Positions 4,175-60,080 of a stretch of 64,000 nucleotides of DNA are shown in pieces. The stretch is from assembly GCF_004341205.1 (NCBI RefSeq), contig NZ_SLUL01000007.1:1-64000 (forward strand). Direction: 5' to 3'. This stretch comes from Thermolongibacillus altinsuensis (GTDB lineage: Bacteria; Bacillota; Bacilli; Bacillales; Anoxybacillaceae). Both the position numbers and the translations under genes were made by a program. A model generated the notes under the pieces. That model did no database searches. It was not told where the DNA came from and saw only the letters and a program-made list of their open reading frames with translations. Position 1 is the first letter of the stretch. Every line of letters starts with the position of its first letter.

Positions 4175-4214
4175 CATCGCCCTTCTCCTTTCTAACACGC
4201 TTCTTCTCTATACA

Positions 4215-4430
4215 GATTCAAGTTGAGTTTCCGACTTATCTCATCATGAATAGAAAACCGCTTTTCTGCCATCGGCGGCAAGATTTTTCTTGACGCCCCG
4301 GCATGCTAGAAGCATGCCGATCCCGAACGTAAAACGCATGGCAGACAAATTCATTTGTCTGATGGCGTTTTCGTTCGGGGAAGTGGCAGAAAAGCTTGCT
4401 CATGTCGGAAAATTAAGCTTATCATATATA
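4215..4430 (+). repeat. Nested-palindrome dispersed element, copy A (full length)
   Basis: A non-coding unit of about 216 bp nearly identical, in inverse orientation, to 50204-50418. Outer arms: TTTCCGAC near the left end pairs with GTCGGAAA near the right end. Next inward, GCTTTTCTGCCA (4260-4271) pairs perfectly with its complement at 4384-4395. Inside are three hairpins: 4274-4297 (GGCGGCAAGA stem), 4299-4319 (CGGCATGC stem) and a long arm 4322-4379 carrying its own tip hairpin CAGACAAAT/ATTTGTCTG (4342-4361). It encodes no protein; short reading frames across it are products of the palindromes. Left flanks of all copies are TATA-like. Confidence 0.9.
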
Positions 4431-49183: not shown

Positions 49184-49254
49184 AACAAAAAAACTATACC
49201 CTCTAAGGATATAGTTTTCCCTAGTTTTTTATAGAGGGTTGTTCTAGAACCTCT
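49184..49254 (-). promoter_or_regulatory. preQ1-I riboswitch with intrinsic terminator controlling queCDEF
   Basis: On the minus strand 49254-49221 reads AGAGGTTCTAGAACAACCCT then CTATAAAAAACTAG: the P1 stem AGAGG/CCTCT, loop and A-rich tail match the class I preQ1 aptamer. It is followed by a terminator, AAACTATATCC/GGGTATAGTTT then TTTTTTG (49218-49184). Bound preQ1 docks the A-rich tail and should favour termination before queC. Confidence 0.94.
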
Positions 49255-49345
49255 CCCACGTCAAAGACGTGGAATTCTTCTTCAATTGTCCGTTTGATAA
49301 TATATCATAAAATATTTATTTATACTATAAAAAAATTATGCTTTA

Positions 49346-50108: not shown

Positions 50109-50584
50109 CGCTTGCCCAAACAGCAAAATAGCAAATCGAAGCGCATGTTCCATTTCATCGGTCATCGCCCGAAAAAACACATCACGAACGTTCTCATCCT
50201 TCATATATATGATAAGCTTAATTTTCCGACATAAACAAGCTTTTCTGCCACTTCCCCGAACGAAAACGCCATCAGACAAATGAATTTGTCTGCCACGCGT
50301 TTTACGTTCGGGATCGGCATGCTAGAAGCATGCCGGTCGGCAAGATTTTTCTTGCCGCCTATGGCAGAAAAGCGGCCTTCTATTCATGATGAGATATGTC
50401 GGAAACTCAACTTGAATCTATTAGATCAATAAACATTTCGATCATCCTCGCATGCTTCCCATTCATCTTCACGCTCCAACTTCAATCCTTCGGCAAACGA
50501 CGAAAACACTTTTTTCTGATAAGCCGGCTGCTTCCCGAATAAAGAGACATATAATCGGTAAACTCCTTCTATCTTCGTTCCATC
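50100..50584 (-). pseudogene. Ferritin-like (rubrerythrin-type) gene interrupted by the repeat element
   Basis: Two coding pieces in the same direction flank repeat copy B. The upstream piece (50584-50426) reads without stops from a TAA to a TGA: EGVYRLYVSLFGKQPAYQKK, then a helix GLKLEREDEWEACEDDRNVY. The downstream piece (50204-50100) reads MKDENVRDVFFRAMTDEMEH then ALRFAILLFGQAKS and stops. Together they form the last two helices of a ferritin-like four-helix protein, with EDE and DEMEH as expected metal ligands. The 5-prime end is also missing (stop codon, no start). A one-base loss next to the insertion would explain the TGA. No function can remain. Confidence 0.75.
50204..50418 (-). repeat. 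Nested-palindrome dispersed element, copy B (full length)
   Basis: Inverse orientation to copy A and nearly identical over 215 bp, with the same outer arms, the GCTTTTCTGCCA/TGGCAGAAAAGC pair and three internal hairpins. Differences include the two loop inversions described under findings. It splits the ferritin-like coding sequence. Flanks on the element strand are TCTAATA at the left and TATATGAAGG at the right; a TA or TATA target is plausible but a clean duplication is not seen. Confidence 0.9.
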
Positions 50585-59967: not shown

Positions 59968-60022
59968 TCTCACTCATGATCGATATAAAATTTGCGTCAT
60001 TTTGATAATAAATTTATATATA

Positions 60023-60080
60023 GACTCAAGTTGAGTTTCCGACATATCTCATCATGAATAGAAGACCGCTTTTCTGCCAT
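60023..60080 (+). repeat. Nested-palindrome element, truncated copy C (left end only)
   Basis: 58 bp match the left end of copies A and B, from GACTCAAGTTGAGTTTCCGA to GCTTTTCTGCCAT, with two or three base changes. The match stops exactly after the inner arm GCTTTTCTGCCA, before the internal hairpins. It is preceded by TATATATA. It lies between the clpE and exporter terminators. Confidence 0.88.

Follow-up and report, generated by a model that had tools for sequence, protein, structure and literature searches.

What is the short non-coding unit that occupies positions 4209-4430 (+) of a 64,000-nucleotide stretch (hereafter, the window) from the genome of Thermolongibacillus altinsuensis, a member of the Anoxybacillus-Geobacillus group, and why does so small a repeat carry so elaborate an interior? 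The original prediction, made from the letters of the window, left three answers side by side: a MITE-like element moved in trans, an element processed as single-stranded DNA, or a mobile structured RNA. The answer depends on three things that can be read separately, namely the number and state of the copies, the ends, and the folded core between them.

Copies in the Window and in the Genome

Two complete copies of the unit, which we call type A, are found in the window. Copy 1 (4209-4430, +) measures 222 bp, both TATATA-like ends counted in, and copy 2 lies on the opposite strand at 50204-50424. A truncated copy at 60017-60080 (+) runs from the left terminal repeat through the 5' arm of the closing stem. 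All three had been located in the original prediction, and each is now longer by the TATATA-like ends that had escaped it.

It had also expected tens of copies per genome, which is what the assembly (2.9 Mb in 39 contigs) holds. When 40 of 113 first-look candidates were scored, at least 40 near-full copies at 90-100% identity were counted, of which the window copy is one. With one mismatch or none, the left end has 68 sites; a left-end 14-mer at up to two mismatches gave 98 matches against 13 for its reversed control, and a right-end 22-mer at up to three mismatches gave 61 against 0. Among the 70 sources from this genome that were read, 54 copies have both ends. Older copies are the more diverged ones, and truncation occurs both on the left and on the right, a comparison made with target-primed reverse transcription in mind.

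Can such a unit move by itself? The only frames that overlap the two complete window copies are short, the longest being 71 aa, so that they are without coding capacity for a transposase; none was seen inside the truncated copies of this genome in the stretches inspected. Truncated copies at three loci (L069, L075, and L057) adjoin remnants that, we presume, resemble IS200/IS605-type ends, with AAGTCTCCCACCTC...GTGTAGGTGGGAGAGGTTCA in L069 and L075. Positions 1136-1997 of L069 are 99% identical to positions 1-863 of L077, which belongs to another genus (G007), a truncated type A copy included, and such identity across genera suggests a recent transfer.

As for the wider family, the element finds matches in 26 of 41 genomes, or 25 of 40 when its own is set aside. 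At the gathering threshold, no Rfam family matches the element, whether in the window or at eight related loci; in permissive mode the window element drew only weak matches, far below gathering scores. A collection of phages searched with the element gave no match, and the open-access literature searched yielded no recognisable report of the type A element or of IS5377 MITEs. The earlier statement that no named family fits holds for the element as a whole; it fails for the shell, which belongs with a named IS family, and for a sister element, type B, which belongs with IS5377. Elsewhere in the window, at 49215-49259 (-), a PreQ1 riboswitch scores above the Rfam gathering score.

The Ends and the IS630 Connection

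The left terminal repeat (4209-4238, +; consensus of the copies TATATAGATTCAAGTTGAGTTTCCGACATA) resembles an IS630-family insertion sequence at its right end. The right terminal repeat (4401-4430, +) contains ATGTCGGAAAATTAA, the string that closes the IS630 transposase gene in relatives (MSEN-stop). In consensus, the left end reads TATATA-GATTCAAGTTGAGTTTCCGACATA and the right end, once reverse-complemented, TATATATGATAAGCTTAATTTTCCGACATA. They are alike at 22 of 30 bases. Several copies have a degenerate left TATATA, and the flanks outside it are unrelated from copy to copy. In 40 copies TATATA stands on both sides with no further duplication, as expected for a family with a TA target; a TA duplication would be indistinguishable from the TATATA of the ends themselves. 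For type A, no empty site came to light.

Which transposon do these ends belong to? In a relative (L077/L225), an IS630-family element adjoins a type A end, and the TATATA is common to both. Kin of this insertion sequence, also with TATATA ends, are present in the genomes of five relatives (L227-L231); the transposase in L227, of 357 aa, scores 267 bits against the NCBIfam model transpos_IS630, for which the cut-off is 100. Comparison of the type A ends with IS families, proposed in the original prediction, gave a partner: the right ends of these five elements agree with the left end of the repeat at 25-26 of 30 bases and with its right end again at 25-26 of 30, a level reached by none of 20,000 shuffles in which TATATA was kept. 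Their left ends agree at 23-24 and 20-21 of 30 bases, respectively.

The repeat and the IS630-family elements thus have terminal sequences and the last transposase codons in common, whereas the repeat is without the transposase and has a foreign core. Because its TATATA ends match this insertion sequence and its right end repeats the last transposase codons, a MITE with IS630-family ends is the best reading of the 222-bp unit, and its shell appears to derive from an insertion sequence of that family. The proposal of a MITE moved in trans has therefore gained a partner with matching ends; movement itself we infer from end similarity and copy number, both of which are observed. An active IS630 driver was not found in the T. 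altinsuensis genome, where the one closely related copy (L226) is split over two frames.

The ends also lend no support to the idea of an element processed as single-stranded DNA, since they are the terminal inverted repeats of a DDE transposon. Elements derived from IS200/IS605 have subterminal hairpins, no terminal inverted repeats, and asymmetric cleavage sites. This class was rejected for type A, which has imperfect terminal inverted repeats that match a DDE transposon.

The Cloverleaf Core

Between the ends of copy 1 lies a 136-bp cloverleaf core (4260-4395, +), the part that is common to type B elements. It is closed by a stem whose 5' arm is GCTTTTCTGCC (4260-4270) and whose 3' arm is GGCAGAAAAGC (4385-4395). 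Within the stem come hairpin 1 (4274-4297), with the loop TTTT here and AAAA in other copies, hairpin 2 (4299-4319), with AGA here and TCT in other copies, and hairpin 3 (4322-4379), a long arm that has an asymmetric internal loop and the tip hairpin GACAAAT-TC-ATTTGTC; all are given on the + strand. The core of copy 2 is at 50239-50373 (-), and the loops of its hairpins 1 and 2 are inverted with respect to copy 1.

The branched structure first drawn for one strand is recovered: the closing stem encloses two simple hairpins and, beside them, a long arm that ends in a tip hairpin. RNA folding of copy 1 gives z values of -9.9 (+) and -8.6 (-), and DNA folding gives -10.9 (+), with none of 200 shuffles as good in any of the three cases. 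The core is a nested palindrome that is predicted to fold into a four-way junction.

The covariance of the copies, another check proposed at the outset, speaks for the same architecture: core pairing is preserved through compensatory changes. In the core alignment, 97.8% of cells are paired, the near-invariance of the closing stem being partly by construction as cores were selected by that stem, and 14 of 53 pairs have changed on both sides. Covariation is 0.172 against 0.090 in shuffles that ignore relatedness; none of 500 such shuffles is as high, and the value is far above slid controls. The number of further pair types was matched by 41 of 500 shuffles.

The Same Core in Other Shells

Is the core a private feature of type A? 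Among the matches listed, nearly all those in other genomes fall within query positions 49-188, which correspond to the closing stem and the three hairpins; full-length matches are about 69-76% identical. Around this common core, type B elements have ends of their own (left CAGGCGTGTTGATTAACCA, right TGGATAATCAACACTCGTG), unrelated to those of type A. With one genome per species, the first 23 bp of the core gave 82 matches in at least 80 loci. Of these, 79 pass a loose motif test for type B ends, which is what the label means in that scan, and one is a chance match in a Bacteroidales record; the other records are named Anoxybacillus, Geobacillus, or Parageobacillus.

For type B a probable driver can be named. 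The flanking 9-mers of 69 two-ended elements are identical in 40 cases and differ by one base in 8, that is, 48 of 69 against 0.15 expected. The same terminal inverted repeats and 9-bp duplications also bound an insertion sequence with a transposase of about 380 aa, assigned by NCBIfam to the IS4 family, and this insertion sequence is 100% identical to the IS5377 annotated in a public plasmid of Geobacillus stearothermophilus. With IS5377 inverted repeats and a 9-bp target duplication, type B has the marks of an IS5377 (IS4-family) MITE. Type A has the core of type B but not the ends of IS5377; it was considered as an IS5377 MITE and rejected, given its TATATA ends and no target duplication. 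The T. altinsuensis genome has no match to a 78-aa query taken from a deleted copy of the IS5377 transposase.

Several further observations concern type B. One element is conserved between hisZ and hisG at four loci (L078, L085, L090, and L269; the gene names were tested for L078, and hisG also for L085), and its end appears, by eye, to provide the ribosome-binding site of hisG. At L152 (1182-1234), the core is reduced to hairpin 1 inside the closing stem, a near-perfect palindrome. The plasmids searched contain one copy (L348, CP128455.1). It lies on a Geobacillus plasmid for which conjugative transfer is predicted, and nothing is annotated beneath the match.

In six cases, one intergenic region has type A in the T. 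altinsuensis genome and type B or C elsewhere (L114/L308, L058/L309, L012/L172, L076/L148, L068/L096, and L074/L199). The insertion points differ in all six, so these are read as independent insertions and not as an exchange of shells in place. Perhaps the shared regions are common hot spots.

Beyond the family, a covariance model of 37 cores was run, under strict filters, on 397 genomes of the order; 17 of these have matches, 11 from the same family and 6 from others. Some genomes have dozens of core-bearing copies. Divergent cores occur in G168 and G340, and G170 has type B elements together with a second, divergent lineage of cores. The cores of G168, of G340, and of this second lineage are enclosed by yet another shell, type C (left GGCTCTTTTCTAAAAGATTGTTGC, right GCAACAAAGTTTACGAAAACAGCC). 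At 19 of the 22 type C loci the flanking 8-mers were measured: 7 are identical and 7 differ by one base, 14 of 19 in all, against 0.22 expected from other partners. Three more loci (L266, L267, and L268) have single divergent cores with no recognised shell.

Where do the type C ends come from? No transposase was found for them. We had guessed at the ISL3 family, which was then rejected as a driver: its transposase occurs in one of the three type C genomes, without type C ends, and no matching pair of terminal inverted repeats was present in 30 ISL3 loci of the order. Nor was there anything usable for a long pair of terminal inverted repeats among the sites listed for G168. In that 4.9 Mb genome, type C end-like sites at up to three mismatches number 445 (control, 2), far more than the 63 core matches on both strands; many type C elements there probably hold a different interior.

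Overall, the core is also found inside repeats whose ends belong to one further Bacillales transposon family at the least, and probably to two. In a tree of 39 cores, those with one kind of shell fall together at modest support (77 for type A; for type C, 95 in G168, 98 in G340, and 88 in G170), type B reaching only 47 and one divergent second match in L148 falling outside it. As the cores follow their shells, changes of shell would have been few or rare.

Arms That Meet as DNA

Another question is whether the arms of this structure ever meet, and in which nucleic acid. The loops give a first answer. Among the 54 type A copies, loop 1 reads ATTTTT in 28 and AAAAAT in 14, loop 2 reads TAGAA in 30 and TTCTA in 10, and all four combinations of the two orientations are seen. 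In type B, flipped loop pairs occur in all three hairpins.

The whole core can be reversed as well. In the orthologous insertions between hisZ and hisG, it points one way in L078 and the opposite way in L085 and L090; it is also reversed in L189 and, by eye, in L153. Of 69 type B cores, 60 were scored in the common orientation and 5 as inverted; of the latter, two rows represent one and the same element (L085), and L102, with a rearranged right shell, is doubtful. The case for inversion is built on L085, L090, L189, and, by eye, L153.

A study of chloroplast DNA describes a parallel, loops between inverted repeats that flip as one event (PMC6005162). There it is the loop that flips, whereas here three hairpins and the entire core do so, and in a bacterial mobile element. 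Flipped loops and flipped cores indicate that, in vivo, the arms of the hairpins come together as DNA.

What the Core May Do

How, then, might shell and core work together? The reading that we prefer, at a probability of roughly 0.6, is a two-part MITE, in which an IS630-derived shell encloses a separable folding core that brings the ends together. An IS630 transposase acting in trans would cut and join the outer shell (about 50 bp on the left and 35 bp on the right) at TATATA-like targets, and IS5377 would move type B, also in trans. Core and shell would be separable parts, the same architecture being present within IS5377 (IS4-family) ends and a third type of end. The arms may meet when a cruciform is extruded, or while the strands are single at the replication fork. 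The core would then be a portable folding device, one that collapses the interior and joins the two ends for whichever transposase recognises them. Our best guess is that a folded core, by helping any transposase that recognises the ends, would be retained and passed between shells.

A serious competitor, to which we give about half as much credence, treats the core as a neutral passenger: chance would have produced chimeric MITEs on two or three occasions, and the palindromes would owe their survival solely to hairpin-templated repair, which corrects one arm against the other. The loop inversions do reveal exchange between arms. Moreover, wobble pairs are about as frequent as A.C mismatches (92 G.U against 73 A.C, p 0.16, with five pair columns at the foot of hairpin 3 dropped as mis-registered), and there is no bias in context or orientation. 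Several copies also have shortened cores that recur: the tip of hairpin 3 is missing in five copies of the T. altinsuensis genome, and L060 and L105 have a larger core deletion in common. The full core is thus probably not needed for movement.

Rates of change point the other way, at least in part. In four orthologous type B pairs (hisG, L083-L086, L087-L262, and L088-L170; the hisG left shell was omitted because an indel broke the alignment), the core has about 2.7 times fewer changes per base than the inner shells, 24 of 550 positions against 41 of 344 (p 3e-5, pairs that are not independent being left out of the count). The pair L083-L280 shows the opposite, with a core (20/136) that changes faster than the shell (10/99), as a passenger might; over all five pairs the figures are 44/686 and 51/443 (p 0.003). 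This hints at selection on the core, from few loci. Two further points weigh against a passenger: arm-to-arm repair alone cannot hold the arms equal to those of another species, and one four-arm layout across several shells and families would require repeated coincidence. The core may be a helper or a mere passenger.

A bolder version of the two-part MITE can be put forward only tentatively: the core may be a transferable DNA module selected for its shape, one that moves between IS630, IS5377/IS4, and 8-bp-duplication shells across several Bacillales families and either helps any of them transpose or serves the host on supercoiled or single-stranded DNA.

It is improbable that the copies are mainly regulatory sites or terminators, like repeats proposed to act in mRNA 3' ends. 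They are intergenic, it is true, since a mechanical test placed none of 45 type A elements and only 2 of 42 of type B within an ORF, and several type B insertions sit at one place across species, one of them between hisZ and hisG. Against this, convergent, divergent, and tandem gaps are occupied like other gaps of at least 100 bp (p 0.45-0.68 for type A and 0.27-1.0 for type B, in small samples). No bias was found in gap type or gene orientation, type A lying 14 times in the same and 15 times in the opposite orientation as genes and type B 9 and 18 times (p 0.12). The flips of loops and core, together with this indifference to gene context, favor folding as DNA over a role as RNA, and a role of the core as RNA is not supported.

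Least credible of all is a mobile structured RNA acting or moving via its transcript, for instance a retron-like one with the closing stem as a1/a2, the short hairpins as msr, and the long hairpin as msd: the topology, a closing stem with two short arms and one long arm, does in our judgment resemble that of a retron ncRNA, the RNA fold is very stable and covaries, and raw G.U counts exceed A.C counts (207 against 81, most of the excess in the five columns judged mis-registered), but the loops vary and invert, the core is inverted against the shell in some copies, Rfam has no match at the element, 0 of 942 ORFs of at least 200 aa in the fetched loci has an RT-like motif pair by a crude test, so that no linked reverse transcriptase came to light, and tests of strand, gene orientation, and G.U excess gave this third proposal of the original prediction no clear signal.

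Relation to Known Repeats

The nearest case in the literature searched is RUP of Streptococcus pneumoniae, proposed as a 107-bp MITE of IS630-Spn1 (PMC2229807). RUP resembles type A in being a short intergenic MITE of about a hundred copies with IS630-family-like ends and TA-containing targets (PMC2229807). Type A, at 222 bp, differs in its length and in a four-arm core that is also found within other transposon ends, a distinction drawn from the description of RUP.

Among the Bacillales, bcr1 of the Bacillus cereus group (147-167 bp) is treated as group-specific in two sources (PMC2267715, PMC3733652). It is likewise a mobile, structured, non-coding repeat, a likeness of description. REP/RAYT elements are palindromes of 20-40 bp tagged with GTAG or CGTC (PMC3733652). 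This class was rejected, the element being a 222-bp unit with terminal inverted repeats. GTAG does stand beside hairpin 1 in many type B copies; most type A rows have ATAG at this place, and others have GGAG or GAAG.

Outlook

MITEs are usually regarded as shrunken copies of one transposon. In the repeats described here, a conserved, structured interior within the ends of different transposases implies that interior and ends evolve as separable parts. This sharing of an interior makes it possible to test whether a folded interior helps DDE transposases to pair their ends. In addition, the independent flips of the loops and of the whole core leave a natural trace of hairpins forming in living cells.
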